DNA of 64,000 bases. Origin: a virus. Shown piece after piece: positions 28,153 through 57,580 of this stretch. How positions within the stretch are numbered: the first letter of the stretch is position 1; each line of letters begins with the position of its first letter. The notes under the pieces were generated by a model. That model did no database searches. It had not been told where the DNA came from and saw only the letters and a program-made list of their open reading frames with translations. The translations under genes and the position numbers were made by a program. The DNA is taken from positions 1 through 64,000 of IMG/VR virus record IMGVR_UViG_3300049734_000086; one strand, given 5' to 3'.

Positions 28153-28161
28153 GGAACCTCC

Positions 28162-28425: not shown

Positions 28426-28436
28426 GGTCAGTCTCC

Positions 28437-29951: not shown

Positions 29952-29964
29952 GGACGCTGGTCTC

Positions 29965-31004: not shown

Positions 31005-31291
31005 CGCGGCGGGGTCCCCAGGTGCTTGAGACTGTCGCGCATGTCGCGGATCTCCTTGTCCACGAGCCTCAGTTCGTGCCGGGTGTTCGCCTGCTGCGAT
31101 TCGAGGACGGCGTAGAGCTGGTGGCTCTCGGCCATGTCCTTGGCGTACTGCGGCGGGTAGCGGATGATCCGGTAGAGACGCATCATGACGGTCACCAAGG
31201 TCGACCAACGGGTTCTCGGGCGGCTTCTCCGCTCGGGGTGAGCGGGCCGCTCGGGCTGGGCTCTGGCGGCGGCGGGATTACGGTTGGGCAC
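31001..31291 (-). CDS. Small coiled-coil protein, 61-96 aa
   Basis: C-terminal 45 residues form an amphipathic coiled coil (LESQQANTRHELRLVDKE). The N-terminus is either GTG at 31291, overlapping the upstream stop, or ATG at 31186 (MMRLYRIIRYPPQY). It precedes a membrane protein and the amidase. Perhaps a lysis or neck accessory. Confidence 0.45.
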   Translation of the reverse strand: MPNRNPAAARAQPERPAHPERRSRPRTRWSTLVTVMMRLYRIIRYPPQYAKDMAESHQLYAVLESQQANTRHELRLVDKEIRDMRDSLKHLGTPPR

Positions 31292-31580
31292 TGCGTCCCC
31301 CTTCGACGATCACGGGCAAGGCTTGGGCTACCGTGGTCAGACCCTGCTTGCCGACGGTGACGCCTTCTTTGGCGACCACGGCATTCCGCATGGCCATCTC
31401 GCGCCAGCGGTCTCGATCCTCCTTCATGTCCAGGAACACCCACCGGGGGATGAAGATGGGGGCCTTGGCCACGAACGAGAAATAGATGATCGAGCCGAGG
31501 AGCAGGACCACGGCGTAGGGGCTGGTCAGGAGTTCGCCCCACGTCCGGGGGTCGGGCGCAGCTTGAGCCACGAGCCACAT
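31278..31580 (-). CDS. Single-pass membrane protein, 100 aa
   Basis: Starts MWLVAQAAPDPRTW, with one membrane helix at residues ~19-37 (YAVVLLLGSIIYFSF), then a charged helix and a soluble C-terminus. The ribosome site is weak, so a start upstream is possible. Its neighbours suggest lysis or membrane anchoring. Confidence 0.5.
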   Translation of the reverse strand: MWLVAQAAPDPRTWGELLTSPYAVVLLLGSIIYFSFVAKAPIFIPRWVFLDMKEDRDRWREMAMRNAVVAKEGVTVGKQGLTTVAQALPVIVEGGRSAQP

Positions 31581-31642
31581 GGTGGTGTACCGGGGGAGGG
31601 ATGCGGAGGTCAGTATGCCTGCGGTGGGGGACCAACGCAACC

Positions 31643-32044
31643 TCACAACCGCAGCCGCCGCATGATGATCTGTTTGACCTCCCGGACCCACGATTGTGGG
31701 ATGCCGAGGAACCGGCGCACGGGGAGATTGCCGTGGCCCTGTTCGTGCTTCTCGGCGATGTCGGCCGAGCGGGCCGTGGCCATCCCCAGGCCGACCCGGT
31801 TCTCGGTCAGCATGCCGATGCCGTAGTCCTCGTCGAGCATCTGCCCGGTGTCGTGCAGGTCGACAGGGCCAGGGCGGCCAGACTGGTATGGGGCGAAGGC
31901 CCGGCCGTCTTCGTCGCGGCCCGATTTGGTCCGCCGGACAGTGCGCTCGACCAAGTGCATGCCGACCTCGCGCATGGTGTCGCGGCCCGGGGTGAGCTTG
32001 ATGTCCTTGAAGGCGAAATTGCGGCGGATCTTGATACGGGCCAT
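31643..32044 (-). CDS. Virion morphogenesis / tail completion protein, 133 aa
   Basis: Fits the phage virion morphogenesis (P2 gpS-like) family: RTVRRTKSGRDEDGRAFAPY, then GPVDLHDTGQML and a C-terminal RRFLGIPQSWVREVKQ. These proteins help complete heads or tails. Start has GGGGG upstream. Small, basic, no membrane segment. Confidence 0.75.
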   Translation of the reverse strand: MARIKIRRNFAFKDIKLTPGRDTMREVGMHLVERTVRRTKSGRDEDGRAFAPYQSGRPGPVDLHDTGQMLDEDYGIGMLTENRVGLGMATARSADIAEKHEQGHGNLPVRRFLGIPQSWVREVKQIIMRRLRL

Positions 32045-32055
32045 GGGGGTCAGTC

Positions 32056-32343
32056 TCAGATCTCCGCCTGCGAGGCCTGCCCCACCGCCCAGTTCACCGG
32101 CCCGGCGGTCAGGAGAATGGGTTGCATGGGCTGGTTGAAGGTCAGGATGGTCAGATACAGGTCCTCCCCGGCCGCGATCAGGGCGCGTTCCTCGTCGCTG
32201 GGCTGCCAGCGGGTGATGACGCGGCCGTCGGGGGTGCAGACCGAGGGCAGGGGGCGGTACTCGGGCTGGTCCTTGGCGATGATGACGGCCTGCGAGCCCT
32301 TGGGGACCCAGGCCGGGTTGACGCGGGGATCGACGATGTCCAT
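32056..32343 (-). CDS. Small conserved-type phage protein, 95 aa
   Basis: Starts MDIVDPRVNPAWVPKGSQAV, the likely start being the ATG a few bases after the preceding stop; a GTG at 32370 is an alternative. The C-terminal half is helix then beta (EERALIAAGEDLYLTILTFNQP). Such proteins occur beside portal genes; function unknown. Confidence 0.5.
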   Translation of the reverse strand: MDIVDPRVNPAWVPKGSQAVIIAKDQPEYRPLPSVCTPDGRVITRWQPSDEERALIAAGEDLYLTILTFNQPMQPILLTAGPVNWAVGQASQAEI

Positions 32344-32348
32344 GACGG

Positions 32349-32459
32349 TTACGGGCTCCTTTTCCACCACCAGACGTAGGCCAGACGGACGAGGAGGAGG
32401 GCGAGGACCAGGACGATGGCCCGGTCCAGGGCGGTGATGGGCTCGACGAAGCCGGTCAT
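32349..32459 (-). CDS. One-helix membrane peptide, 36 aa
   Basis: MTGFVEPITALDRAIVLVLA then LLLVRLAYVWWWKRSP. A single hydrophobic helix with a basic end. The start overlaps the upstream stop (ATGA), which supports coupled translation. Function unknown. Confidence 0.5.
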   Translation of the reverse strand: MTGFVEPITALDRAIVLVLALLLVRLAYVWWWKRSP

Positions 32460-32665
32460 ATCCGCACGACCCCCTTGTGCTCCCCGCAGTAGTCGTACTT
32501 GCCGGTGACTGGGTGCCGGGTCTCGACTTCCGTACTCACGCTCCCCTGACTGATGCCGTGGTCGAAGTCCGTGGTGACAATAGCCACCAGTACGGGCGGG
32601 AAGCGGTGACAGTGGCCCAGTTCCCCGTCACCCGAGACCCAGTACTGACAGGTGTGGCAGTGCAT
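32456..32665 (-). CDS. Small zinc-ribbon protein, 69 aa
   Basis: Cys pattern MHCHTCQYW, LGHCHRFPP and YCGEHKG gives four zinc ligands. Such CxxCxxW...CxRxPP peptides are common in phages, of unknown role. It starts three bases after the portal stop. Confidence 0.65.
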   Translation of the reverse strand: MHCHTCQYWVSGDGELGHCHRFPPVLVAIVTTDFDHGISQGSVSTEVETRHPVTGKYDYCGEHKGVVRI

Positions 32666-32667
32666 CG

Positions 32668-34548
32668 CTACTTCCGCTTGGCGGTCTTCGGTTTCCGGCT
32701 CGGAGCCTGACGCACCCGGACCCTGGCCAGCCGCTCCTGGTGGTCTCTGTCCTCCTGGGCCCTCACGTCCTCACGCTCGGCCTTGATGGTCTCCTTCTCG
32801 TCCTCCCGGTCTTCCTGCTCCCGAGGGTTGCGACCGGCGATCAGGTCCTGCCGCTCCTTGTCCTGGGCCTGCTGGGCCAGTGTCGACTCCGCCTCCAGTT
32901 CCTTCTCGATGGTGTCGCGGGTCGTCTGGTCGAGATCCGGCAAGGCCAGTTGCAGTACCCCCGCCTTGAGGAGTTTGGCGGCGGTCGGGCCCACACCCAG
33001 TTCCAGTACCAGCTTGGTCTCCTCCGCCTTGGCCAGGAGCTGCTCGACGTGGAACTCGTCGGGGTGCGCGATCCGAATCCCGGCCGCCTTGTACGCCGCC
33101 AGTCCACGCTCGGGGCCCAGGGTGCCCTGGAAGTACATCCGGGCGGCGAAGTAGTCGATCTCCTCGGCGTTGTCGGCCAGGGAGGCCAGACTCGAATTGA
33201 GGTCGGCCGCCTTGAGCTGCCGCGACCCCTCCGCCTCGGCCTCCTTGGAATCACTCTCCCAGGGCAGGGACGTGAGCCTGAACGCCTTGCGCTCGACCCT
33301 GGCCAGTTCCTCGGTGTAGCGGGCAGCCGGGCCGTCCCCGGGAGCCACGTAGATGGCCTGCCCGCCCTTGGTGAACACCACCGAGTCGGTCCCGACGTGC
33401 TCGCCCATGCGGTTGCGGGCATCCTGCACGGTCTCGTCGTCCTGGAGCGGGATGTTGAGAATGTTGAAGGTCTGGGCACGGAAGATCTCACGCAGCTCGG
33501 AGATCAGGTTGAAGTGGTCCTTGAACAGCCGCCCATCGCCCAGCAGGCCCCGGCCGATGATCGGGATCCGCGCCCTCCGCTTGCAGTACCACAGGCGGAC
33601 GGGGAGTTCCCCGAAGCCGTGCGGGCGGACCTGGACCTGCGCCCCGAAGGTGTCGAACTGGGTGGCGTACTGGCCATTCCAGGTGAAGTACCACCGCTCG
33701 GCGGGGAGGGGCTGATCGAGGAGTGAGGCCCGCTCGACAGGCTCCTCGACCTTGATGGCCGCCAGTTGGTTGCGCGGGGCCAGCCAGTCGGGGATGTCCA
33801 GGGGCGAGTAGCAGCGCAGGACCGGGCGGCCCAGTTGGGCCAGCGTGGTCAGACCCGTCTTGCCCCCGTTGGGGGTGATGTTGGTGCGGAGGGTGTTGGG
33901 GGGCTGGCGGTCGACCACGATGGCTTGGTGGCCGTAGACGTTGGTCAGGGTCTGCCACCGCTTGAGCCAGTCGTCCATGTGGGTGCCGTAGCCGTCCACG
34001 TCCTCCAGCCACTCCAGGTACGGGGAGCGGTCGAGGAGGGCAGGCTGGTTGGTCACTTCCCGCTTGGGCAGCTTGGCGTACTGGTAGTCGACGAACAGGT
34101 CGGTGATGGTGGCGGCGAAGTTCTCGTAGCGCGCAATCTGCTGGCGCTGGAGGTACTTCCGTTTCCGGCTCACGACCACCGTGTAGTCGGTCGACCCGTC
34201 GGTGTTCTGCTTGAAGTTCAGCTCACGGGGGTGCGGGACCAGGGCCTCACCCGACAGGTAGGGCCCATCCCCTTCGTAGACGTGTCCCAGCTCGGTCCAC
34301 ACCGAGGCCCACTCGATGTAGCGCGGATGCTTGATCGAGACGATGCCGGAGAGGGCGGACTGGGGGAGGCCACGGGCCCGGGCCGCTGCCAGGGCGGTCG
34401 ACTGGGTGATCGGGGTCCCAATGGGGATGGAGCGGCCGGTGGAGCCCAACGACTGTCCCGTGTCGCTGACGATGTTGAGACCCACGCCGACCCCGTAGGA
34501 GGTGCGGGGGGCGGCGGCGATGGGGCGGACTTTCGGGGTCTTGGCCAT
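32668..34548 (-). CDS. Portal protein, 626 aa
   Basis: Dodecameric DNA gate of the head. Mixed alpha/beta middle (YVVDYQYAKLPKREV-like core; VLRCYSPLDIPDWLAP; WYFTWNGQYATQF) and a C-terminal acidic, Lys/Glu-rich coiled coil (residues ~540-615). The pattern VNRMGEH...RYTEELARVERKAFRLTSLPWESDSKEAEAEG, seen here as VERKAFRLTSLPWESDSKEA, fits portal proteins of the DUF4055/SPP1 type. Second after terminases among the large genes, as expected. Length 626 is normal for a portal with a C-terminal tail. Confidence 0.8.
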   Translation of the reverse strand: MAKTPKVRPIAAAPRTSYGVGVGLNIVSDTGQSLGSTGRSIPIGTPITQSTALAAARARGLPQSALSGIVSIKHPRYIEWASVWTELGHVYEGDGPYLSGEALVPHPRELNFKQNTDGSTDYTVVVSRKRKYLQRQQIARYENFAATITDLFVDYQYAKLPKREVTNQPALLDRSPYLEWLEDVDGYGTHMDDWLKRWQTLTNVYGHQAIVVDRQPPNTLRTNITPNGGKTGLTTLAQLGRPVLRCYSPLDIPDWLAPRNQLAAIKVEEPVERASLLDQPLPAERWYFTWNGQYATQFDTFGAQVQVRPHGFGELPVRLWYCKRRARIPIIGRGLLGDGRLFKDHFNLISELREIFRAQTFNILNIPLQDDETVQDARNRMGEHVGTDSVVFTKGGQAIYVAPGDGPAARYTEELARVERKAFRLTSLPWESDSKEAEAEGSRQLKAADLNSSLASLADNAEEIDYFAARMYFQGTLGPERGLAAYKAAGIRIAHPDEFHVEQLLAKAEETKLVLELGVGPTAAKLLKAGVLQLALPDLDQTTRDTIEKELEAESTLAQQAQDKERQDLIAGRNPREQEDREDEKETIKAEREDVRAQEDRDHQERLARVRVRQAPSRKPKTAKRK

Positions 34549-34569
34549 AGGCTCGGGCTCGAGTACTGA

Positions 34570-34872
34570 CTAGGGAGACACGGGATGTCCGTTGCCATTT
34601 GCGCCGGTACTGGTCCCGGAGGCCTGGGCCTTGGGCAGGTTCCCCGGGGTGTTCCCCAGCAGTCTGACCATGATGGCTCGCGGGCCCTTCTCGTGCAGGA
34701 CCGGCGTGAAGTCGACCAGCAGGCCCGGGACCAGGACCCGGGTCAGGTCGAACAGCTCCAGGCGGTGATCGTTGATGATGTCGTCGCGGTAGAAGAAGCG
34801 CGCGACCTCGGGCTCACGATCACTGACCACGAAGGCGTAGGCGTATTGGACGGATTTGATGCGGCCGGTCAT
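34570..34872 (-). CDS. Cold-shock-domain-like protein, 100 aa
   Basis: Order of strands resembles CspA: GRIKSVQYAYAFVVSD, FFYRDDI, LVPGLLVDFTPVLHEKGPRAIMVRL, and then a disordered Gly/Asn tail. RNP-like motifs appear but aromatic residues partly differ. Probable single-stranded nucleic acid binder. A cold-shock-like protein in front of the portal gene is odd and may act as an RNA chaperone for late mRNA. Confidence 0.65.
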   Translation of the reverse strand: MTGRIKSVQYAYAFVVSDREPEVARFFYRDDIINDHRLELFDLTRVLVPGLLVDFTPVLHEKGPRAIMVRLLGNTPGNLPKAQASGTSTGANGNGHPVSP

Positions 34873-34878
34873 GGGGTC

Positions 34879-35154
34879 TTAGTCCTCGTCTGAGTCATCG
34901 TGGGCAGCGGGGGTGTCCGTGTCGGAGTCGTCGAGGTCGTCTTCGTCGTTGTCACCGGCGATGGTGAAGCCGCCGGGATCGCCGACCCGAATCAGCCGGT
35001 CGTGGCGTTCGAGCAGGGCCTCGAAGGCGTCGGTCATGCCGTCGAGGACATCGGGATCGTCGCCGCTGTCGCCGTACAGATCGACTTCTAGATCCTCGTC
35101 GAACTCCTCATCGCGGCTCGGGCAGGCGCGACGAGTGCTGGGGCGCTGTGCCAT
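34879..35154 (-). CDS. Acidic small protein, 91 aa
   Basis: Strongly acidic with Asp/Glu-rich ends and a short folded centre (VLDGMTDAFEALLERHDRLIRVG). Unknown. May be a DNA mimic or binding partner of a basic protein, but nothing decides this. Confidence 0.5.
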   Translation of the reverse strand: MAQRPSTRRACPSRDEEFDEDLEVDLYGDSGDDPDVLDGMTDAFEALLERHDRLIRVGDPGGFTIAGDNDEDDLDDSDTDTPAAHDDSDED

Positions 35155-35231
35155 GGTCCGGGTCTCCTGGGGCGTAAGGGAGAAAGCCCGGACACGATAG
35201 CACAGGTAGTGGCGATGGTCGGGGTGGGGCC

Positions 35232-35285
35232 CTATTGGTTGGGGATTCTAGGGGATTCTGTCCTTGGTGACCTTGTCCTGCTCAT
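35232..35285 (-). CDS. Candidate 17-residue peptide
   Basis: ATG at 35285 with a ribosome site identical to that of the preceding gene (AGGAGCCGACCC, 35287-35298 and 35417-35428). Product would be MSRTRSPRTESPRIPNQ. Reported because of the duplicated ribosome site; the peptide itself may be a leader or not translated. Confidence 0.3.
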   Translation of the reverse strand: MSRTRSPRTESPRIPNQ

Positions 35286-35301
35286 AGGGTCGGCTCCTAT
35301 G

Positions 35302-35415
35302 CTAGCGGCCAGCAATGCCGTGAGTCTTGCGCCAAATAGACCAACAGACCTTGCAGTCCTTAGGCGGTCGCTTAGCTTGGTAACTGGGATGCTTTGAGCA
35401 CTTCTTCGTAATCAT
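35302..35415 (-). CDS. Tiny zinc-ribbon-like protein, 37 aa
   Basis: MITKKCSKHPSYQAKRPPKD then CKVCWSIW. Small phage proteins with CxxHPxYxAxRxPxxDCKVC are widespread. Start ATG 35415 has AGGAG 9 nt upstream. Function unknown; zinc binding by Cys/His is likely. Confidence 0.65.
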   Translation of the reverse strand: MITKKCSKHPSYQAKRPPKDCKVCWSIWRKTHGIAGR

Positions 35416-35446
35416 GGGGTCGGCTCCTGTGCGGAGGAAAGGGCGG

Positions 35447-35836
35447 CTACTCCTTCGCATTGCGTGTGATCCACCAGTCGAGGAAATACGCCCCCGGTGG
35501 GTCGTGAACCGGCTCGCGCGGCAGGTTCTTACCATCGCCGCAGTTGTGGTCGTAGCGCCAACCGAACCAGACGCGCAAGTATCGACCCTCCTCCCGCCGC
35601 AGACGTACCTGAAAGAGCGGCGGCCACTGCACGCCCGCGTAGCCGTCTTCACCGAGAGGCACGCGGACCAGCCACTTCGCTTGGTAGAGGGAGTACACCA
35701 TGCTCGCCCGCTGAATGCCCCCAAGCAGCAGCCCGAGCGGCCCGCCCAAGCGCCAATCGGTCCCCATGTTGACGTACCGGAAGGCCAGCGGCTCGTCGCC
35801 CGTGGCCTGCGGCAGATAGCGGCGCAAATCAATCAT
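35447..35836 (-). CDS. Uncharacterised protein, 129 aa
   Basis: Trp/Arg-rich soluble protein beginning MIDLRRYLPQATGDEPLAF. C-terminal half has repeated aromatic pairs (RVWFGWRYDHNC; YFLDWWITRN). It resembles small phage proteins of unknown role near terminase genes. ATGA-type overlap with its upstream neighbour. Confidence 0.5.
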   Translation of the reverse strand: MIDLRRYLPQATGDEPLAFRYVNMGTDWRLGGPLGLLLGGIQRASMVYSLYQAKWLVRVPLGEDGYAGVQWPPLFQVRLRREEGRYLRVWFGWRYDHNCGDGKNLPREPVHDPPGAYFLDWWITRNAKE

Positions 35837-36110
35837 CGGCCGTAACTGACTCCGCCAGTCTGGCCAGCGTGTTCAGGGCGTCCCGCAACTGGCTCTCGAC
35901 GTTGGCCAGCCGCTTGTCGAACGCCGACAGGAGCCGGGTCTGCGCCTCCCCATCGGCCCGTACCCGTACCAGGTCGACCCGGATGCTGTCGACCGTGTTG
36001 GTCAGTCTGGCCAAGCGGTTCGTCGCGGCCCTGGTGTTGCGGAGCGTGGTGTCCTGGGGGTTGCGCTTCTTCTTCGGGGTCCGTGTCGGCGGCGTCATAG
36101 TCTCAGTCAC
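35829..36110 (-). CDS. Coiled-coil protein, 93 aa
   Basis: Residues 25-90 form a long amphipathic helix with heptads (ATNRLARLTNTVDSIRVDLV and RLANVESQLRDALNTLARL). The basic N-terminus KKKRNP may bind nucleic acid. Overlaps its upstream neighbour by 8 bases. Function unknown. Confidence 0.5.
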   Translation of the reverse strand: MTETMTPPTRTPKKKRNPQDTTLRNTRAATNRLARLTNTVDSIRVDLVRVRADGEAQTRLLSAFDKRLANVESQLRDALNTLARLAESVTADD

Positions 36111-36669
36111 AGTAGCCTCCTTCGTTCCGCACCTTCAGCCGGATCATCTTCTTCTCCCACACTAGATTCCGCTCCTCGGTCCAGTCCAACCGACCGGGCC
36201 GGTTCCCGACCACGTTGAAGCGGGCATCCTCGCCACGCGCCCGACGGTTCCACTGCACCGCCATGCGCTTGAGCCGATTGCGCTCGGTCTTACTGAGCCC
36301 GAACCCGCCTTCGTGCTCGCTGAACGTGGCCTCGTCCAAGGCGCGTTCGACCTTGCGGGCAAAGATAGCAGCGGCCTGCAGGTCCCTGGGGCGGCACTTG
36401 GGGGCGCTCCCCGTGATGTGGCGGTACCCGGAGCGGAACTTCCCACCATGGGCTTCCAGCTCCACCTTGTCACTGGCGCGAGCCGGGTCAGGGTACCGTT
36501 CCTTGCGGTGCGGGTTGGCCTTCTTGACATGCGCCCGCATCTGGTCCGCTGTCTTGGTGGTCAGTTTGGGGAAGCAGACCGGGCACCACCGCTTCGAGTA
36601 CAAGGGGTCGGTGGGCAGCCTGAGCCAGTACGGCCCGCCACAGTTCTGGCAGGTGCGCTGCTCGATCAC
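36103..36669 (-). CDS. Zinc-finger basic protein, 188 aa
   Basis: GTG start overlapping the upstream stop (GTGA). N-terminal CQNCGG and CPVCFPKL give a four-Cys zinc ribbon. The rest is basic with helices (NRLKRMAVQWNRRARGED). Probably nucleic-acid binding. Located in the cluster between terminase and portal. A DNA-packaging or transcription accessory is possible. Confidence 0.55.
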   Translation of the reverse strand: MIEQRTCQNCGGPYWLRLPTDPLYSKRWCPVCFPKLTTKTADQMRAHVKKANPHRKERYPDPARASDKVELEAHGGKFRSGYRHITGSAPKCRPRDLQAAAIFARKVERALDEATFSEHEGGFGLSKTERNRLKRMAVQWNRRARGEDARFNVVGNRPGRLDWTEERNLVWEKKMIRLKVRNEGGYCD

Positions 36670-36950
36670 AGGTCGTACTCCTTCGCCGCCCGCTCCCGCA
36701 CCGCCTTGTTGCTGGTGCGCCGGGTGCGATCCGTGATGCAGGCCACGCAGGCCCCATTGGAGAAGTACCGTCGTGTCCCCCCGCACCGCTTGCACGGACG
36801 GCCCTCGAACTGGGTGATGTTGTCCTGGCAGGGCGGGGGCTTGGGTGCAGGGCCCGTGACCACCGAGGCCAGCGCCTCCTGCATCTCCCGGTGGAACTCG
36901 TCATCGCCCATCACCTCGCGGACGGGCGGCGGCATGGGAGGCTTCAACAT
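36666..36950 (-). CDS. Zinc-ribbon protein, 94 aa
   Basis: Pro-rich start (MLKPPMPPPVREVMG) then CKRCGGTRRYFSNGACVAC, a four-Cys zinc ribbon near residues 54-72, and a basic C-terminus. No Shine-Dalgarno; a promoter lies just upstream, so the mRNA may be leaderless. Confidence 0.55.
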   Translation of the reverse strand: MLKPPMPPPVREVMGDDEFHREMQEALASVVTGPAPKPPPCQDNITQFEGRPCKRCGGTRRYFSNGACVACITDRTRRTSNKAVRERAAKEYDL

Positions 36951-36958
36951 AGAACGAT

Positions 36959-36987
36959 AGATTAGAGATTCGGGGGGTATTAGGCAA
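36959..36987 (-). promoter_or_regulatory. Candidate leaderless sigma-70-type promoter (leftward)
   Basis: TTGCCT and TAATCT spaced by exactly 17 nt on the minus strand (36987-36982, 36964-36959). Eight bases separate the -10 box from the ATG at 36950, so the transcript would begin at or within a base or two of the start codon. No ribosome site precedes that ATG, which agrees with leaderless initiation. Confidence 0.45.
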
Positions 36988-37115
36988 GGGGAAACAAACG
37001 GCCGTCGGGTCGAGGGTATTTAGCACTCTGGGCACTACAGGTTACTGGGCACTCCAGGAGACTTAGCACCGAAGGCACAATTTCCAGGGCTTGTTAGTAC
37101 TACTAAACTAAGAGA

Positions 37116-37137
37116 GCGGACGGATTCCGTGGTCCGC
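37116..37137 (-). terminator. Hairpin after the large terminase gene
   Basis: GCGGAC / GTCCGC stem (37116-37121 with 37132-37137) with an inner pairing of the GGATTCC type, followed leftwards by TCTCTTAGTTT. It starts 9 bases after the terminase stop. Weak T-run, so a weak terminator or mRNA processing site. The 195-base spacer 36951-37145 otherwise holds only the promoter. Confidence 0.3.
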
Positions 37138-37145
37138 ACCCAGGC

Positions 37146-38759
37146 TCAGTACTCCCCGCCGGACCAGAAATTCGTCTCCGTGAACTCCTGCTGCAGGAAC
37201 AGCCGCTTGTCCGCCTGCGTGGTCCCGTCGACTTGGTCGTCATTGGCGGAGTTGGGGAACATGGTGTGCTCGTTGAGGAAGGACCCCACGGCCAGGAACC
37301 CCCCGGGCTGGTACGGCGGGGGGTTGTCGTTGTGGGCGTTGCCGGTACGGGCCACCCATTCGTACCCCGGGAGGGCGGGGTAGGGGATGACGTAGTTCCC
37401 CGCCTGCAGTCGTGGACTCATGGCGTGGGCCCTGGCCTCCTTACTCGTGTCGACCTCGATGCTCAGGATCCCCGGGACCTCGTCTTGGAGGGTCCGAATG
37501 ATGGCCGTGCCGTTGGCCTTGTCCTCGACCAGGATCGCGTTGGGGATCTGGCGGTGACAGAGTCGGAGGGCGCGGACCTGGGTCTGTGACTCGATGAAGT
37601 CGAAGTGGCCGCGCTTCTGGTTGATGAGGAACGCCAGCGCCCCGGTACGGCCCCAGGCTTGGCCTACGACATACGAGTGCTCCTCACGGTCCTTGAAGGC
37701 CATGTCCCACGAGTCGATACGTTCCTCGAAGCGTGGGGGGAGGGGCAGGATCGGACGGCCATTCTCATCGGGGGTACCGCAGAGTTCGTGTCCGGCCGGG
37801 GCCCAGTACCGCCACCACGACCGCTTCAGAATCCCACCCTCGGCTGGTGTGGGGTCTTGTTGGAATTGGGCGGCGTAGGCGTTCCCGAGGTCGATCTTGA
37901 GGCGGTCGATCACGGGCTGGGGGAAGCGTTCGGGGAAGAGGAGTTCCCCGGGCTCGGTGCGCGGGTCGGTGAAGAACGGGCGGCCGTCGTTGAGGTGGGT
38001 GAAGCAGCGGCGCTTGGGGTCGAACTCGGCCTGGAGATTGAGGTGGACGTACCCCGCCTTGTTGTTGAGCACGTGGCCTGAGAGGTCAGACTCGTGCCCC
38101 CTCTGCATGATGATCACCTTGGCGACCTTGCGCTGGTCGTTGATTCTGGTGGCCATGACCTCGTCCCACCACTGCACCACCGCCGCGCGCATGTTCTCGG
38201 AGTGGATCTCCTTCATGTTGTGCGGGTCGTCCGCCACCAGCCGGTCGCCGCCCTCTCCCGTGTTGGAGCCCGAGACTGACGTACTGAGGTGGTACCCCAT
38301 CTTGTCGTTCTGGTACTTGATCTGACCATCCGGGGTGAACTTCTGCTTCCCCAGTTGGAACACGTGCGACCACCCGGACTTGTACCAGGGCGTGTCCATG
38401 ATCAGGCGGCGGCGCTGGGAGTCCCGTTGGCTGAGAGTCTGGGCGTACGAGCTGAAGATCCAGCGCGTGTGGGGCAGTCCGCCCGGTCCCCACTCCCAGG
38501 TGGGCCACATGATGGCCACCAGGGTCGATTTGGCGTGGCGGGGCGGGATGTTGATGAGGAGCAGGTTGATGTCCCCGAACGTCACCGCCTCCAAATGGTC
38601 ACAGATGGCGTCGTGGAACCACGTCCAGGCCAGGGGGGTCCTGGGCTCGACGATGGGCCACGCCAGCTTGGTGTATTCACGGAGGCCGCCCCGGGTCTCG
38701 GACAGGCGGTACCCCAGCTCGTTGCGGACATCCTCGTAGGTCAGGGCGGTGAGAGGCAT
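37146..38759 (-). CDS. terL: Large terminase subunit (ATPase and nuclease), 537 aa
   Basis: DNA-packaging motor. Start MPLTALTYEDVRNELGYRL at 38759 overlaps the upstream stop (TGATG). Walker A region LLINIPPRHAKST, arginine finger and the strand SSYAQTLSQRDSQRRR, Walker B-like RLVADDPHN, and a C-terminal RNase H-type nuclease with acidic residues (DSWDMAFKDREEHSYVVG and NAILVEDKANGTAII). Length matches family. It belongs to the SPP1/T4-like packaging group, but headful versus cohesive ends cannot be told. Confidence 0.93.
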   Translation of the reverse strand: MPLTALTYEDVRNELGYRLSETRGGLREYTKLAWPIVEPRTPLAWTWFHDAICDHLEAVTFGDINLLLINIPPRHAKSTLVAIMWPTWEWGPGGLPHTRWIFSSYAQTLSQRDSQRRRLIMDTPWYKSGWSHVFQLGKQKFTPDGQIKYQNDKMGYHLSTSVSGSNTGEGGDRLVADDPHNMKEIHSENMRAAVVQWWDEVMATRINDQRKVAKVIIMQRGHESDLSGHVLNNKAGYVHLNLQAEFDPKRRCFTHLNDGRPFFTDPRTEPGELLFPERFPQPVIDRLKIDLGNAYAAQFQQDPTPAEGGILKRSWWRYWAPAGHELCGTPDENGRPILPLPPRFEERIDSWDMAFKDREEHSYVVGQAWGRTGALAFLINQKRGHFDFIESQTQVRALRLCHRQIPNAILVEDKANGTAIIRTLQDEVPGILSIEVDTSKEARAHAMSPRLQAGNYVIPYPALPGYEWVARTGNAHNDNPPPYQPGGFLAVGSFLNEHTMFPNSANDDQVDGTTQADKRLFLQQEFTETNFWSGGEY

Positions 38760-39052
38760 CAGTTGACCGTGTCCGTGTGGCCAGTGTCCGCCTTGGCCTT
38801 GACGGTCCTGGCCTTCGCCGTCTGGTAGTAACCACGGCACGCCTCGACGAGGACGAGCCCGGTGGTCTGCACGTTCCGATCGTTGAGTACCCACTGGTAC
38901 CGCAGGCAGATCTCCAGTCGAACGACCAGCCCGTGGACCATGGCGAGCAACTGGTCCCGTTCACTGCCTCCTATCGCCTCTGCGGATTCGATCAGCGCGT
39001 CCACGACTTCGGTCTGCAGGCTCTCTAGGCTGGGTGTGTCGTCTTGGTTCAT
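38759..39052 (-). CDS. Small helical protein between terminase genes, 97 aa
   Basis: Starts MNQDDTPSLESLQTEVVDAL. Helical; a hydrophobic patch (DQLLAMVHGLVVRLEICLRYQ) suggests a small domain or dimer. Placed between terS-like and terL genes; stop overlaps the terL start. Function unknown, probably a packaging accessory. Confidence 0.55.
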   Translation of the reverse strand: MNQDDTPSLESLQTEVVDALIESAEAIGGSERDQLLAMVHGLVVRLEICLRYQWVLNDRNVQTTGLVLVEACRGYYQTAKARTVKAKADTGHTDTVN

Positions 39053-39056
39053 GGTG

Positions 39057-39959
39057 TCAGGGCTCCTCACTCGGCGTGGGCGGGGTTTCCTCGGTGAACT
39101 GGTCGAACGGGGCTGCGATGTCCGCCCGCAACACCTCATCGACCCTGCGCGCCTCCCCTTCGATCACCAGCGGGGTGCTGGTACTCAGTGTCGCTTGGGG
39201 GATCGGTCTGGACTCCTGCAGCCGTCTGGCCAGGGAGACCAGATCGTCCATCGTCGCCTCCGCTAACGGCCGCCGGATGTTGAGGTCCACTTCGACTGGT
39301 GCGTCGAGTCCGAGCATCTTGGCCCTCCGGCTCATGATGTTCAGGGCCTGGGCGATGGAGTACGTCTCTCCCCGTTCGATGGCGGGCCACAGGTAGGTCA
39401 TCATCTTGTCGAGCCGCGTCAGGTCCAGGGCCCGGATGTCCTCGGCCAGGATGCGCTCGTACTTCCGCAAGTACGCCAACGCCTCCTGCACGTCCTGGTG
39501 CGCCGTCTTGACACTGACCCCCAGGGCCACACCGATCTCGCGGTAGTCGTACCCTGCCGCCCGGTAGTTGAGGGCCTCGACCCGGCGCTGCTCCTTGGTC
39601 AGCCGCTGGGGCTTGGCGTCGTCATGCGGGATCTTGTCGGGTTCGAGCGGCACGGCCTCTTCGACTTCCGGGAGTGGCTTGCCGAGGTCGATGCGCGGGA
39701 GCTTACCGACGAGACTGGCCTTCCCGGCCTCAGTCTGACCTTGGGGGCCGGGGCCATCAGATGGGGAAGTGTCAATGCCGTTACTCGGGGCGGGCCCTGT
39801 GGGCTCACCCGTCACACCCCCATCGTCACCGTGCGGGGGCTCGGGGTTGGTCAGGTGGTCCAGGCCGCCCTTGAACTCGCCGGGGATCTTCTTACGAGTC
39901 TTGCCTTTACGAGCGTTGGCGGCGTTGCGGCGGTGGGTGGTGGTACGGTGGCCGGGCAC
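39057..39959 (-). CDS. terS: Small terminase subunit-like protein, 300 aa
   Basis: Recognises phage DNA for packaging. GTG start. A disordered first ~120 residues precede a helix-turn-helix (RRVEALNYRAAGYDYREIGVALGVSVKTAHQDV) with the recognition helix VSVKTAHQDV, followed by helices typical of the oligomerisation core (ALDLTRLDKMMTYLWPAI) and a C-terminal region with LARRLQESRP. Two genes upstream of terL, the usual place. It is longer than most TerS at the N-terminus. Confidence 0.75.
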   Translation of the reverse strand: MPGHRTTTHRRNAANARKGKTRKKIPGEFKGGLDHLTNPEPPHGDDGGVTGEPTGPAPSNGIDTSPSDGPGPQGQTEAGKASLVGKLPRIDLGKPLPEVEEAVPLEPDKIPHDDAKPQRLTKEQRRVEALNYRAAGYDYREIGVALGVSVKTAHQDVQEALAYLRKYERILAEDIRALDLTRLDKMMTYLWPAIERGETYSIAQALNIMSRRAKMLGLDAPVEVDLNIRRPLAEATMDDLVSLARRLQESRPIPQATLSTSTPLVIEGEARRVDEVLRADIAAPFDQFTEETPPTPSEEP

Positions 39960-40198
39960 GGGGAATTAGGCTCCAGAATCAGGGGTCATCGACGGGTCTG
40001 GGCAGGCAGGGTAACAGGAATTCGGTGTTACCGGGTAGCCCTGGGCTGCCAGCGGGGTACTGCGGCGGGGTCTGGCAAGGGTACTGCGGGCCGGGCCAGG
40101 GAGGTCAGTTACTGGGCTCTGGGGCTTATGGCTGAGCTAGGTCCTGGCAGCCTGGAAAGTGTCTCAAAATAGGACAGTCTGGCCTAGGTGGTTGGGTG

Positions 40199-40204
40199 TA
40201 TAAT
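40199..40204 (+). promoter_or_regulatory. Consensus -10 box TATAAT, rightward promoter
   Basis: Exact TATAAT in a GC-rich background, preceded directly by TG (partial extended -10). No clear TTGACA at 16-18 nt; GACAGT at 40174-40179 is the nearest. It would start transcription near 40211, driving the non-coding region and the rightward early operon. Confidence 0.6.
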
Positions 40205-40488
40205 GTGGGCTTGTCTGGTCAGTCTGAGCCTTGATTGCAGCTACTGACCACGACGTGACAACTGAATCTGAGCATGCCCTGGATGACCCCGCCACAACGG
40301 AGGGCCAGGGACAGGCCGCCAAGTAGACATGGCGATGACCCAGCCGCTCACCCCAACGACCCGAGACCGCGATTCGGAACGGCCGCTGACGAATGGCTTC
40401 TGTGACTGAGACACGGGAGCCGTGAGGAGTACTGGTGCCTTGTGAGAAGCAAGGCCGACCGCCTGAGAGCGTGTGCCGCAAGCGCCCC

Positions 40489-40510
40489 GAGACCGAGCCA
40501 CCGGAACGGG
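40489..40510 (+). repeat. 22-nt repeat, copy 1 of 2 (copy 2 at 40964-40985)
   Basis: GAGACCGAGCCRCCGGAACGGG occurs twice, differing at one base (A/G). Shorter relatives lie at 40363, 40723 and 41140. Each unit can form CCG-loop-CGG. See the non-coding RNA entry. Confidence 0.75.
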
Positions 40511-40811
40511 TGCGGCACTCATCCTCCCAGGCGTGGAGCCGTCGAGTGGGGCCGACCGACACATGAGGACCAGCGTGGAGCACCCGCTCTGGAGCTACGA
40601 GACCAGGGTTGCGACGGGGATGAGCCGACCACGCCATGTGGACTAGAGTGACAGTGATGGCGCGGCAGCACGGAAGCAAGCAAGGACGTGCGCGCAGTGC
40701 TCGCGGGTGACTGGCAAGCCGAGAGACCGGGTGACCGGGGAGCTTGGATCGGTGGGACGAGAGGACAAGGCCCTCGTACTTCCCGCAACGCCAGAGCACG
40801 GAGGCGGGTGT

Positions 40812-40842
40812 GCCGGTTCGATCCCGGCCCCTTCATCCACCA
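40812..40842 (+). other. tRNA-like T-arm with 3' CCA
   Basis: GCCGG TTCGATC CCGGC is a perfect T-arm (5-bp stem, 7-nt TTCRANN loop), followed by CCCTTCATCCACCA with CCA at both 837-839 and 840-842. No 5' partner for the acceptor strand, D-arm or anticodon arm fits a normal cloverleaf within 100 bases upstream; GGATGAG at 40618 could pair with TTCATCC but is 225 bases away. So a tRNA mimic or decayed tRNA, not a functional tRNA. Confidence 0.4.
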
Positions 40843-41253
40843 GTCGGTATCAAGGCCGACCCGCGCCATCGCCAGCTCCTAGAAACCAACCACCAAACAC
40901 GCACGGCCGATGGAGGAGAGTAGGGCCATCATTCACCCGTGCCGCGACGACGAGCCGCGCCCTGAGACCGAGCCGCCGGAACGGGCACCACGGCCACGTC
41001 ATGCGACCAAGCAGCCAATCGAAGTGTGAAGCAAGCCGCCATGAGGCGTCCGAGCCAGTGTGACTGGGCGTGGGTGGGGGGTCTCCCGAATGGACGGGAT
41101 TGAAGAGGGAGCCATTCAACAAGAACTGGCGGGAACGGGGAGACCGGCAACGGTCGATGAACCGCCGCGAGTGCCGCCCCTGACTGTGAGTCGCGGTACG
41201 CCGAGGGTGAAGCAGGATAGCCCTCGACATGGAAGTGAGGAGGGAGCCGAGCA

Positions 41254-53178: not shown

Positions 53179-54093
53179 GTGGCCCGCACCTACAACTGGT
53201 CCTGGCCCCCCAAAGGGGTCAGGCCCGAGGCCTGGAAAGCCACCGAGACCATCTGCAAAGAGGCGATCAAGCGGAGCGGGACCACCACCTGCTCCTGCGC
53301 CTTCTCCACCGGCAAGGACTCGCTGGCGATGATGATTGCGCTCCACCACTTCTTCGAGACCGTGGTCCCCGTGTTCTGGTACCACGTGCCCAACCTCGGG
53401 TTCATCGAACGGAGCCTGGAGTACTACGAGCGGGTGTTCAAGACCCAGACGGTCAGACTGCCTCACCCGTACCGCTTCTACCACTTCTCCTACTTCCAGC
53501 TCCAGCCGCCCGACCGGATCGCGGCCATGGACTGGATCATGGCGGAGGTTCCTGATTTCACCATGGACTCCCTGTTCGGCGAGGTGCGGACCCAGTACGG
53601 CCTCGACAAGCTGGGAGGCTCGAAGATCGGGGCGATGCACGCCACCGGGATCCGGGCGGCCGACTCCCCGATCCGGGCCAGTCTCTACCGCAAGCACGGC
53701 GGGTTCGCGCCCGCTGGCCTGCTGTTCTACCCAGTGATCACCTGGAACCTCGACGACATCGAGGCGGCCTTGGACCACACCGGCCTGATGCTGCCGCCCG
53801 AGTACCGCTTCATCGGCCGCAGCTTCGACGGCATCATGCGGCGCTACACGACACCAGTGAAGGAGCATTGGCCGGAGGACTGGGTCAAGATCCTCGACGA
53901 CTTCCCGCTGGCCGACCTGGAGTTCTTCCGGGCCGAGAAGGTCACACCGCCGGAGCTGCTGAAGCCGCTCTACAAGTTCATCGGACGCGAGGGACCGAAG
54001 ATGAGCGATACTCTCCGCCGGGAGGAGACCGCACATGCAACCGACTCGACTCGCCCTGGTGACCGCCCTCGTCGCCGTCGCCCTGACCGCTAG
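53179..54093 (+). CDS. PP-loop ATP-pyrophosphatase, PAPS-reductase-like, 304 aa
   Basis: GTG start, then CAFSTGKDSLAMMIALHHF, the PP-loop signature SxGKDS for adenylating a substrate. VPVFWYHVPNLGFIERSLEY and FEVRTQYGLDKLGGSK-like stretches fit the PAPS reductase family. The C-terminal 60 residues are Arg-rich. In phages such enzymes may activate sulfur or modify DNA or nucleotides; no partner for queuosine or DndCDE is visible here. Neighbours are HTH and RadC-like proteins. Confidence 0.75.
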   Translation: MARTYNWSWPPKGVRPEAWKATETICKEAIKRSGTTTCSCAFSTGKDSLAMMIALHHFFETVVPVFWYHVPNLGFIERSLEYYERVFKTQTVRLPHPYRFYHFSYFQLQPPDRIAAMDWIMAEVPDFTMDSLFGEVRTQYGLDKLGGSKIGAMHATGIRAADSPIRASLYRKHGGFAPAGLLFYPVITWNLDDIEAALDHTGLMLPPEYRFIGRSFDGIMRRYTTPVKEHWPEDWVKILDDFPLADLEFFRAEKVTPPELLKPLYKFIGREGPKMSDTLRREETAHATDSTRPGDRPRRRRPDR

Positions 54094-54982
54094 AGGCCAC
54101 ACGCAAGTCCGCGAACTCGAACTGCTGGTGGTGATGGACGGGGAGTTCACCCAGCGCATCGCCCCCACCACGCCCCAGCAGTGGCTCGACGCCCTGGTGA
54201 CGGAGTCCAATGTCTGGTGGGAGAGGGACCTGGGCATCCGGCTCAAGGTCGTCCGCCTCGACGCCTTTCCCGACCCGGCGACCGACCCGTTCACGGCGGC
54301 CACGGACAACCCACAGGGCACGCTCGACGAGATCTCGGCCTACGGCAATGCAGTCAGTACCCCCCGAGACGCCGCGCATCTGTTCACCGGCCGCGCGATG
54401 ATGTACGGCGGCTACACCTACGTCGGGGTGACGTGCAAGCACCCGGCGTTCAGTTATGGCTGGTCGCAGTTGGGGTTCTGGGGCTACAACTGGACGATTG
54501 CCGTGGCGAGCGTGGAGCTGGCCCACCAGTTGGCGGGTGTCTACTACGACAACATCCCGAGCTGTGACGGGGCCTTGTTGGGCAAAGGGCCAGCGCCGGA
54601 GGACTACCACCAGTACTGGTTCTGCGCCGCAGCCAAGGCCGACATCGACGCCCACTTGGCGGCCAACCCCCCATGTCTGACCACCGAGGGCGGACCCCCG
54701 CCCACCGACACGCAGTCCCCAGTGGTCAGTATCATCGAGCCGTCGGGCAATAGGATCCCGGCGGGCCCGACCTTCACCATCTCGGCCCAGGCCACCGACA
54801 ATGTCGCCGTGGCGCGGGTGGACATGGCGGTCAATGGCGTGCTGGCGTGTACCGACGACCTGTCGCCCTACGCCTGCACCGCCCCGCAGAACGCGAAGAA
54901 CAAGAACTACCGGATCGAGGTCCGCGCCTACGACACGGCGGGGAACGTCGGGACGGCCAGTAAGACGGTACGAGCACGATGA
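54035..54982 (+). CDS. Secreted adamalysin-like protein with broken zinc site and Ig-like domain, 315 aa
   Basis: Signal peptide (MQPTRLALVTALVAVALTA). The mature N-terminal ~190 residues follow reprolysin/adamalysin (M12B): DAAHLFTGRAMMYGG, TYVGVTCKHPAFSYGWSQ, and the site ASVELAHQLAGVYYDN. Compared with HExxHxxGxxHD, the first His is Val and the third is Tyr; only Glu and the middle His remain, so protease activity is doubtful. A Pro/Thr linker leads to a ~90-residue bacterial Ig-like domain (SPVVSIIEPSGNRIPAGPT). It overlaps the PP-loop gene by 59 bases. May act outside the cell as an adhesin or sequestering decoy. Confidence 0.8.
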   Translation: MQPTRLALVTALVAVALTARGHTQVRELELLVVMDGEFTQRIAPTTPQQWLDALVTESNVWWERDLGIRLKVVRLDAFPDPATDPFTAATDNPQGTLDEISAYGNAVSTPRDAAHLFTGRAMMYGGYTYVGVTCKHPAFSYGWSQLGFWGYNWTIAVASVELAHQLAGVYYDNIPSCDGALLGKGPAPEDYHQYWFCAAAKADIDAHLAANPPCLTTEGGPPPTDTQSPVVSIIEPSGNRIPAGPTFTISAQATDNVAVARVDMAVNGVLACTDDLSPYACTAPQNAKNKNYRIEVRAYDTAGNVGTASKTVRAR

Positions 54983-55596: not shown

Positions 55597-55794
55597 ATGC
55601 AGTACGCATTCACCGGCAAAAATCTCGTGTCCATGGCGTGTGTCCCGGCGACGGGCGGGGGCCGTGGTGGCCGTCGGCGTCGAGCGGGTCGTCAACCGAA
55701 TGGCCGTCCCCTCCTGCGTGGGGCTGCGGCTCGGAGAAGTAACGCGGCGTTCCGGCGTCGACTTCTGAGACTCCAGGAGGCGGGGATCCGCTAA
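55597..55794 (+). CDS. Arg-rich small protein, 65 aa
   Basis: MQYAFTGKNLVSMACVPATG then a run of Gly/Arg. Ribosome site GGGAGGGAGA is good. Last rightward gene before the terminator. Could be real or a fortuitous frame; the Arg-rich half has little complexity. Confidence 0.4.
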   Translation: MQYAFTGKNLVSMACVPATGGGRGGRRRRAGRQPNGRPLLRGAAARRSNAAFRRRLLRLQEAGIR

Positions 55795-55853
55795 CGGACT
55801 GAGGGCAGTCGGCAGTCGGCAACGGTCGACGGCCGCAGTCGGCGTACAAGAAA

Positions 55854-55890
55854 AAACCCCTAACAGGTTCTAAGGGCCTGTTAGGGGTTT
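55854..55890. terminator. Bidirectional intrinsic terminator
   Basis: AAACCCCTAACAGG / CCTGTTAGGGGTTT, a perfect 14-bp stem with 9-nt loop (55854-55867 with 55877-55890). Rightward it is followed by TTTCTTACT, leftward by TTTTTTCTTG. It separates the rightward operon from the converging leftward genes of the 56-kb island, and lies 2 bases from the stop of the last of these. Confidence 0.88.
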
Positions 55891-55891
55891 C

Positions 55892-56086
55892 TTACTCTGA
55901 GGGTTCAGCCAGTGGTCTACACTGCACTGGCCCTATAATCCTGCAGCATGTCTCAGGGCCCTGCAGTGGCCAGTACCAGAGGAATAGCAGGCCACAGAAG
56001 TTAATGGCCTGCCACTGCTCCACAGCTACTGTGATTGGGGATCCTAGGTTGGTCCTGTAGGTCAAGAGCTTAGGCTCGATTCTCAT
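55892..56086 (-). CDS. CpG-poor island protein, 64 aa
   Basis: MRIEPKLLTYRTNLGSPITV, a Trp/Leu-rich middle (FCGLLFLWYWPLQ, one possible membrane helix) and Cys pairs. Start ATG overlaps the preceding stop (TGATG). Unknown. Codon use lacks CpG, unlike the rest of the genome. Confidence 0.5.
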   Translation of the reverse strand: MRIEPKLLTYRTNLGSPITVAVEQWQAINFCGLLFLWYWPLQGPETCCRIIGPVQCRPLAEPSE

Positions 56087-56205
56087 CTCAGCACCTTGAT
56101 TGCTGGCATGTGCTTAGCCTGCCACTGGTCTACAGCCTGCCTTGCCCCAGTTGCCAGCATGGCAGCCAGGGCAACTAGGACAAGGCCCAGTGTTAGAGTT
56201 TTCAT
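56083..56205 (-). CDS. Exported peptide, 40 aa
   Basis: MKTLTLGLVLVALAAMLATG is a signal peptide or membrane helix; then DQWQAKHMPAIKVLR. Good AAGGGAG ribosome site. Coupled to the next gene by TGATG. Unknown. Confidence 0.55.
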   Translation of the reverse strand: MKTLTLGLVLVALAAMLATGARQAVDQWQAKHMPAIKVLR

Positions 56206-56248
56206 TCTGTTCTCCCTTGGGTTGGTCAGACTGACCTAGCTGGGTTCT

Positions 56249-56276
56249 CTGCCTTTGGTACTGCCCCTGAGAGTGC
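56249..56276 (+). repeat. Inverted repeat arm, left
   Basis: Exact 28-bp reverse complement of 56851-56878. The arms extend imperfectly on their outer sides through GAACC and AGGTCAGTCTGAC, so the pair spans about 56225-56276 and 56851-56900. Confidence 0.85.
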
Positions 56277-56283
56277 AGGTTAA

Positions 56284-56487
56284 CTACTCTGACTCTGTGC
56301 CCCTGATCTCTAGCCAGTGGGTTGTACTGGCAGCCTTGATTGCCTCTGCAGGCCTTGCCATGGTTAGCAAGTCTGGTTGTTCGTCTGCTCTGTAGCACAG
56401 GCCACAGTAGCATCTAAGGGCCTGTAGTCTGGCCTTGGGGGTTCTCGACTGCAGCTTGCTACTTGAGCTTTGCTGTGATCTCAACAT
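56284..56487 (-). CDS. Small Cys-containing protein, 67 aa
   Basis: Includes RCYCGLCYRADEQPDLLTMA, a possible metal knuckle, and EAIKAASTTHWLEI. Starts inside the end of the lysine-rich gene in another frame, with no clear ribosome site. Probably coupled to that gene; start uncertain. Confidence 0.4.
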   Translation of the reverse strand: MLRSQQSSSSKLQSRTPKARLQALRCYCGLCYRADEQPDLLTMARPAEAIKAASTTHWLEIRGTESE

Positions 56488-56824
56488 TGTCCAAGGTCCA
56501 GACTTGCCCTTTGTGACAAGGCAGGTTGGCCAGTGCTCTGTTGATGGCTGCAACCTGGTTAGCTGCTAGCTGCTTTGGCTGGAGGTAGTAGTTGTCCCCA
56601 TACTGGGAGGCAGCCTTGAGATCTGAGGCAAGTTCGGCACCCTGAAAAATCATAGAGTGCTTCTTCTTCCCCTTCTCCCCTGCCTTGGTTGCCTCTGTCC
56701 TAGCTGGCACCTTGCCCTTGGCTTGGACTGCCTTGCCCTTGCCCTTGGCTTGGACTGCCTTGACTGCCTTGCCCTTGCCCTTGCCCTTGTTCGACACTGC
56801 CTTAACTGGATTCTGCTTAGCCAT
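56459..56824 (-). CDS. Lysine-rich histone-tail-like protein, 121 aa
   Basis: Residues 1-57 are K/A/G/V repeats (KGKGKGKAVKAVQAKGKG, VQAKGKVPART) similar to histone H1 tails and bacterial AlgP-type repeats. Residues 58-121 form a small domain (IFQGAELASDLKAASQYGDN then LAANQVAAINRALANLPC). AGGAG 9 nt upstream of ATG. Probably binds and condenses DNA or RNA. Flanked by exact 28-bp inverted repeats; encoded with almost no CpG. Confidence 0.75.
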   Translation of the reverse strand: MAKQNPVKAVSNKGKGKGKAVKAVQAKGKGKAVQAKGKVPARTEATKAGEKGKKKHSMIFQGAELASDLKAASQYGDNYYLQPKQLAANQVAAINRALANLPCHKGQVWTLDNVEITAKLK

Positions 56825-56850
56825 TGGTCTCTACTCCTGAAATCTGAAAA

Positions 56851-56878
56851 GCACTCTCAGGGGCAGTACCAAAGGCAG
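56851..56878 (-). repeat. Inverted repeat arm, right
   Basis: Reverse complement of 56249-56276, lying just upstream of the ribosome site of the lysine-rich gene. Together the arms enclose that gene and the Cys-containing gene (~575 bases between them). No transposase or target duplication is visible. Confidence 0.85.
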
Positions 56879-56934
56879 GAACCTGTAAGGTCAGTCTGAC
56901 TTAGGTATTCAGTTGTAAAGAGCATAGGCAGCCT

Positions 56935-56963
56935 ACCATAGGCCTAGGAGGTCAGATGTTAAA
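56935..56963 (-). promoter_or_regulatory. Candidate leftward promoter of the island
   Basis: TTTAAC and TATGGT with 17 nt spacing on the minus strand (56963-56958, 56940-56935), about 110 nt upstream of the lysine-rich gene. A second TTTAAC lies adjacent. Sequence is AT-richer than surroundings. Confidence 0.35.
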
Positions 56964-57039
56964 TCCATGTTAAATGTGGCCTAGGTGGTCAGACTGTGCA
57001 GTCTGGCCTAGCTGGCCAGTTCTCGGCAGCCAGGGCCAG

Positions 57040-57290
57040 GGCCAGACATGGCAGCCAGGGCCCTAGGATGGCCCTAGGATGGCCAGGGCCAGGACACTAG
57101 CAGTCTGGCCAGGGAGGCAGCCAGGGCCCAAGGGCCAGGGCCAGGGCCCAAGGGCCAGGGCCAGGGCCCAAGGGCCAGGGCCCAAGGGCCAGGGCCAGGG
57201 CCAGGGCCAGGGCCAGGGAGGCAGGGAGGCAGGGAGGCACCATTGATCAGAGTTGGCAGCCAGGGCCAGGGCCAGGGCAGTAGTAGCAGT
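57040..57290. repeat. GGCCAGGGCC-type low-complexity tract
   Basis: About 250 bases made mainly of GGCCAGGGCC, GGGCCCAAGGGCC and AGGGAGGC units in tandem. No start, ribosome site or credible protein; the frame on the minus strand is only Pro/Trp/Gly/Leu repeats. It borders the CpG-poor island. Possibly an origin-like or recombination tract. The stretch 57291-57580 that follows returns to normal composition, with no gene until 57581. Confidence 0.8.
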
Positions 57291-57580
57291 AGCAGGGCCC
57301 TGAGACGCCCGTCACCACGCCCCACCGTCCCGCTGACGGCCAGGGTACGATTCGTCAATCGGGCAGCCAGGACCGCAGCCAGGACCGCCCGCGCACGCCC
57401 CAGACCCAAGCCCTACCGCTAGTGGTCCGGGCCGCTAAACCCCCCTACATTGTGGGACTTCCCACGGTCGGGCTTTCCCTCATACACTGCCGCTCGTTCC
57501 CATGCGACGGTCTCTCAATCGTCACGCTGGCCGCCCCACCTCTGCCCGGTCAGCGCCGCCCCTTCCCTGGAGCTACGTAC

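Follow-up and report, generated by a model that had tools for sequence, protein, structure and literature searches.

How a phage genome with an otherwise ordinary CpG content has come to contain a segment of 1462 bp in which this dinucleotide is nearly absent is the question raised by IMGVR_UViG_3300049734_000086, a phage record of 74,430 bp that ends in a direct terminal repeat of 24 bp. The window analyzed here is a stretch of 64,000 nucleotides that forms part of this record (its positions 1 to 64,000), and all coordinates refer to it. Minus the segment, which we call the CpG desert, the phage genome has a GC content of 65.5% and a CpG observed/expected ratio (O/E) of 0.96. The best explanation that we can offer, and one that we hold with moderate confidence, is that the desert is an orphan leftward operon of the "moron" type, recently acquired from a CpG-avoiding replicon with GC-rich codon usage.

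Setting of the CpG desert in the phage genome

The genome is organized in two arms. Structural genes (terminase, portal, major head protein) make up one, which is read leftward; the other, for replication, is read rightward, begins at ~41 kb and encodes helicases and DNA polymerase. The desert is the sole clear leftward gene block in the rightward arm (41-74 kb). To its right lies a module of conserved order (the 57422 ORF, helicase, 60455, 61392, an AAA protein, an ERCC4 nuclease and DNA polymerase), and each gene of this module has homologues in 36-85 uncultured phage loci. On the left side, at 48-55.5 kb, almost all that is encoded is specific to this phage: the genes there have homologues in at most one uncultured phage locus. 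The 10.4 kb of the genome that extend beyond the window are without a second large desert, and most of the intergenic DNA outside the desert has normal CpG.

Several observations on the neighborhood may be recorded here. The replication module runs from 57422 to the end of the window at 64000 and continues up to 73 kb in the full record (L005), its helicase is DinG/Rad3-like, and its gene order is kept in dozens of uncultured phages. At 53179-54982, a protein of the PAPS-reductase family adjoins a reprolysin-like metalloprotease with a bacterial Ig domain, and there is one tiny Arg-rich ORF at each edge of the desert (55597-55794 and 57243-57422). Scans with single sequences yielded no relatives of the genes that neighbor the desert; alignments were required for this purpose.

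Extent and strength of the CpG depletion

By exact counting, the last CpG to the left of the desert is at 55843 and the first to the right at 57306, and both edges are sharp to about 10 bp. The first-pass annotation of this locus had placed a CpG-poor island at 55892-57300, with roughly seven CpGs in about 1.4 kb; the region was correctly recognized, its true bounds are slightly larger (55844-57305), and the exact number of CpGs is six (56077, 56382, 56446, 56635, 56792 and 57024). The depletion holds on exact counting, with a CpG O/E of 0.06-0.07 in the desert vs 0.96 in the rest of the genome, and when the runs without CpG in the window are ranked by length, five of the top six are inside the desert. 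All six CpGs have the context TCG on the plus strand, as had been described, but in these six cases, noticed post hoc, the context is less telling because TCG and TCGA are the favored CpG contexts of the phage itself.

The deficit is not confined to any one class of positions. The four ORFs of the desert contain 5 CpGs, as compared to 71.8 expected from the codon usage of the phage (the lowest of 2000 simulations gave 54), and a C is followed by a G across codon boundaries 3 times vs 19.9 in codon shuffles (the lowest of 5000 being 11). Arginine is always encoded by AGA or AGG, and the only NCG codons are TCG (n = 2). The non-coding promoter region of the desert has 1 CpG vs 12.6 expected. The avoidance extends to every codon phase, codon boundaries included, and to the DNA outside the genes, so that it acts on the nucleic acid and not on the protein.

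Anatomy of the desert

The features assigned to the desert are as follows.

55844-57305, no strand assigned: the CpG desert as a whole, 1462 bp with 6 CpGs (O/E about 0.06)
55854-55893, minus strand: intrinsic terminator of the leftward operon, right after the last stop codon; hairpin of -28.2 kcal/mol, z -4.4
55892-56086, minus strand: 64-aa orphan ORF, its start overlapping the stop of the 40-aa ORF; no family match
56083-56205, minus strand: 40-aa ORF with a GGGAGA ribosome site, by inspection a membrane-type peptide, its N-terminus being hydrophobic; no family match
56225-56276, plus strand: inverted repeat of ~50 bp that encloses the 121-aa gene, left arm; perfect over 28 nt, longest in 100 shuffles 16 nt
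56284-56487, minus strand: 67-aa orphan ORF that shares sequence with the end of the 121-aa gene; the least certain of the four ORFs
56459-56824, minus strand: 121-aa ORF with a basic N-terminal half rich in Lys, Gly and Ala and an AGGAG ribosome site; without homologue
56851-56900, minus strand: right arm of the same ~50-bp inverted repeat, with the same shuffle result
56935-56962, minus strand: leftward promoter-like site, TTAACA-N16-TATGGT, sigma-70-like; 1 found, 0.4 expected
57030-57290, no strand assigned: GC-rich (73%) CpG-free repeat tract, unit GCCAGG

The desert thus has its own leftward genes with ribosome sites and a possible promoter, much as the first-pass annotation had it. The terminator that had been called bidirectional is strong, but its bidirectional character is weak, the scan calling it on the leftward strand alone. 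Weak Rfam matches to NsiR1 and SpF44, below the gathering score, were taken as similarity to a terminator.

The inverted repeat with arms of ~50 bp flanks 56277-56850, i.e., the 121-aa gene together with the 67-aa ORF. It could serve as an inversion site for the 121-aa gene, or its arms could pair in the transcript as a long stem; no site-specific invertase or recombinase was recognized among the phage proteins scanned. A shorter inverted repeat of 15 nt is found at 55950-55964 and 57292-57306 (1 of 100 shuffles reaches 15 nt), with the left copy 100 bp inside the desert. Inspection by eye for signs of insertion at the desert gave no clear target-site duplication, nor was a clear integrase seen. 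An AlphaFold2 model of the 121-aa protein, made without alignment, had a pLDDT of 52 and was unusable.

Composition beyond CpG

Overall, the GC content of the desert is ~54% (53.7%). In two-fold codons, which are free of CpG effects, GC3 is 84.4% in the desert vs 85.6% in the phage, so that the desert is not ordinary AT-rich foreign DNA, in line with what its moderate GC content had suggested at the outset. This phage-like codon choice suggests a donor, or a history in a host, with the same codon preference; it can also be read as the outcome of evolution in place.

Two tetranucleotides set the desert apart from the phage. TTAA is present 5 times in 1457 bp of the desert and only once in 60 kb of phage coding DNA, where codon shuffles predict 19.7, while CTAG is 15-fold denser in the desert (8.5 vs 0.56 per kb). 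A constraint on CpG alone predicts neither of these differences, and they therefore count in favor of a separate history. The strong avoidance of TTAA across the coding DNA of the phage genome is a trait worth recording in its own right.

Comparison with related phages and searches for a donor

Homology searches with the four desert proteins and a comparison with related phages had both been proposed in the first-pass annotation, and both were run. The proteins have no detectable relative: the desert ORFs gave nothing usable against viral contigs, phages, plasmids, Pfam, PHROGs and NCBIfam, and neither did the 121-aa ORF against PDB or against bacterial genomes, for which it was the only query. 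DNA matches of the desert in Aeromonas phage BUCT551 and in a Rhodobacter plasmid consisted solely of GCCAGG-type repeats and were rejected as low complexity. The pattern CAGTCTGGCCTAGSTGG had one match among viral contigs, in a contig with near-normal CpG, and this was judged to be due to chance.

In about 30 loci that carry the syntenic module, the corresponding place has normal CpG upstream and no match to the desert ORFs, although these relatives are mostly 25-45% identical and the term "empty site" is accordingly approximate. We also surveyed 160 related phage loci, ~1.9 Mb in all. Once runs that merely reflect AT-richness are set aside, the remaining long stretches without CpG are repeat arrays: L054 has a pentapeptide-repeat gene of this kind, and L117 a tract of the GATACA type. 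For whole related loci with a length of 9 kb or more, CpG O/E lies between 0.34 and 1.55, with none near 0.06. No donor-like genome (GC near 54%, CpG O/E near 0.07) was seen, the lowest values among the sampled relatives being 0.34-0.48.

The L054 locus (IMG/VR phage 3300033743_000015) is one of the closest parallels: a CpG-free pentapeptide-repeat gene (L054:1227-2120) in a 74.9-kb phage with otherwise normal CpG. Like the desert, it presents a CpG-free run (650 bp) in a phage with a CpG O/E of 1.06 and a related helicase module; unlike the desert, it is mostly a repeat array, is read rightward, has AT-type codons in its non-repeat part and shares no sequence with the desert. The domain of the pentapeptide gene was also tried as a guide to a CpG-poor donor and was set aside, having no relatives outside the L054 phage.

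Proposed origin of the desert as an acquired operon

Morons, as known from lambdoid phages, are transcriptionally autonomous accessory cassettes that usually stand out by their AT-richness. The desert resembles them in having its own promoter and terminator, a reverse orientation, an odd composition, a position between modules and no counterpart in relatives, and the sequence bears out a leftward promoter-like site and terminator, the absence from the same place in distant relatives and the distinct composition. It differs from known morons in its moderate GC content, in codons that fit the phage, in its lack of homologues and in the nature of the anomaly, which is the near-total loss of a single dinucleotide.

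Acquisition, the type of donor and the cause of the CpG avoidance are the parts of this explanation that we infer. The operon would be self-contained, with its own leftward promoter, four orphan ORFs and a strong terminator of its own. Transcription from the putative promoter at ~56935-56962 would yield a single transcript of ~1.05 kb ending at 55854 and encoding products of 121, 67, 40 and 64 aa, where the stop of the 40-aa ORF overlaps the start of the 64-aa one. The block would have been gained recently and inserted in reverse between accessory genes and the conserved replication module. It probably came from a replicon that was under very strong CpG avoidance and whose host had the GC-rich codon preferences seen in the phage, the avoidance being perhaps the product of long residence in a cell that attacks CpG, i.e., under a regime of CpG-directed restriction or modification, and the dialect of the donor would have been kept for want of time for amelioration. 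The likely role of the operon would be an accessory function borne by the basic 121-aa protein and the putative 40-aa membrane peptide, and by analogy the 121-aa protein may be a histone-like protein that binds DNA or RNA.

The first-pass annotation had offered two possibilities, and its interpretation as a whole is supported in part. That the segment is a transferred cassette with a separate history is supported by its abrupt boundaries, by a gene orientation opposite to that of the arm, by a location where accessory genes give way to core genes, by its absence in about 30 distant relatives and by the TTAA and CTAG frequencies. The special constraint that had been offered as the other possibility is real, in that it extends to all codon phases and to the non-coding part; we favor a constraint that acted in the donor over one acting in the phage.

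CpG avoidance this strong is a hallmark of vertebrate-type methylation or antiviral sensing, and CpG-depleted DNA is typical of vertebrates and of small vertebrate viruses. The desert shares with such DNA the CpG deficit, an excess of CAG/CTG and CCT/AGG, GC-ending codons and arginine encoded as AGA or AGG; its O/E of 0.06, its bacterial-style genes, ribosome sites and intrinsic terminator and its place in a tailed phage are all unlike that DNA, and the likeness is one of composition. We know of no description of a phage coding cassette with such CpG avoidance, and the literature searched for CpG depletion in phages yielded none.

If a bacterial replicon has been purged of CpG and has kept its GC-rich codons, then some bacterial process acts on CpG itself, in DNA or RNA, and the cassette offers a concrete sequence for tracing this process and where it comes from. 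Should the cassette be no more than a moron, composition anomalies besides AT-richness can mark a recent gene gain. More speculatively, there may be a class of nearly CpG-free replicons in GC-rich bacteria, with the codon preference of the host and shaped by a CpG-directed defence not described so far, of which the cassette and perhaps the patch at 40.1 kb described below are pieces, unless these are parts of the phage that are actively kept CpG-free.

A second CpG-free patch and a possible local constraint

One further feature bears on the origin of the desert.

40092-40251, no strand assigned: second CpG-free patch ("mini-desert") of 159 bp, where the two genome arms meet at the divergent promoter; k-mer dialect similar to that of the desert, membership uncertain

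With CpG removed from the comparison, only 0.2% of genome windows rank as high as this patch in desert-like k-mers (the windows that follow it, 36951 and 35226, are both intergenic), and the 8-mer TGGCCTAG is found only in the patch and the desert. Direct alignment of the two is not significant (10 of 300 dinucleotide shuffles reach the score). The patch also holds TATAAT and the motif CAGTCTGGCCTAGGTGG, which recurs in the desert with one change.

The patch suggests that the dialect is not confined to the cassette, which speaks against acquisition, and its weak resemblance to the desert keeps alive the idea that the cassette evolved in the phage and that CpG is excluded there and at the divergent promoter for the sake of some function, e.g., freedom from CpG-directed DNA modification or from a nuclease acting on the leftward transcript. 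The codon preferences of the desert, being those of the phage, fit this idea as well. We nevertheless regard it as unlikely: the alignment falls short, TTAA and CTAG differ too, the rest of the phage has normal CpG, most of its intergenic DNA included, and among the ORFs scanned no CpG methyltransferase was recognized, the only matches of this type being to a Dam-like enzyme and to a general methyltransferase domain.

Less probable explanations

It is improbable that the desert is an ordinary phage segment whose CpGs were lost by C-to-T change at methylated CpG, i.e., by deamination like that of RIP in fungi. Converting all CpGs of the rest of the genome to TpG or CpA would lower its GC content from 65.5% to 55.4%, near the observed 53.7%, and the CAG/CTG and CAA/TTG frequencies fit; however, CTA/TAG is observed at 19.0 per 1000 vs 4.1 predicted and TAA/TTA at 9.5 vs 0.9, while GTG/CAC and ATG/CAT are at less than half of the prediction. 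Moreover, the third base before G is A in 34 codons and T in 19, where C-to-T change predicts mostly T, arginine as AGA or AGG requires transversions, and the reading frames and ribosome sites are intact. The deamination model was rejected on the trinucleotides and the third-base pattern.

That an assembly chimera or contaminant lies within the phage contig is a shade less credible still. The composition changes abruptly at both edges, and no second contig over the desert was found: a second metagenome contig of the same phage (L096), 100% identical over 11.9 kb, covers only 28119-40033. It comes from another sample, and sample 3300045953 contains the phage. Two false junctions in one phage would be required, however, both of them intergenic and the left one just past the cassette's own terminator, in DNA that has the codon preference of the phage and a desert-like patch elsewhere in the same genome.

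Expansion of repeat units (GCCAGG, AAGGGC) that are CpG-free by chance, as in the L054 gene and the L117 tract, is very improbable for the desert as a whole: the tract at 57030-57290 is of this kind, AAGGGC repeats occur in part of the 121-aa gene and the other long non-AT-rich CpG-free runs of related phages are repeat arrays, but the 1.19 kb from 55844 to 57030, with all 6 CpGs, is largely non-repetitive, and the same deficit marks the promoter region and three of the ORFs (40, 64 and 67 aa), all of them free of such repeats, which account only for the right end of the desert (57030-57290).

Other observations in the window

Next to the CpG-free patch, ~1 kb at 40252-41230 is without convincing genes. 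Its sequence includes GGTTCGATCCCGGCCCCTTCATCCACCA, which resembles the 3' end of a tRNA, as well as a duplicated GAGACCGAGCC.CCGGAACGGG; ARAGORN and Rfam gave no match in this region, and its folding energy is ordinary. In the structural arm, 19982-23221 encodes a 1079-aa protein with two glycosyltransferase regions.
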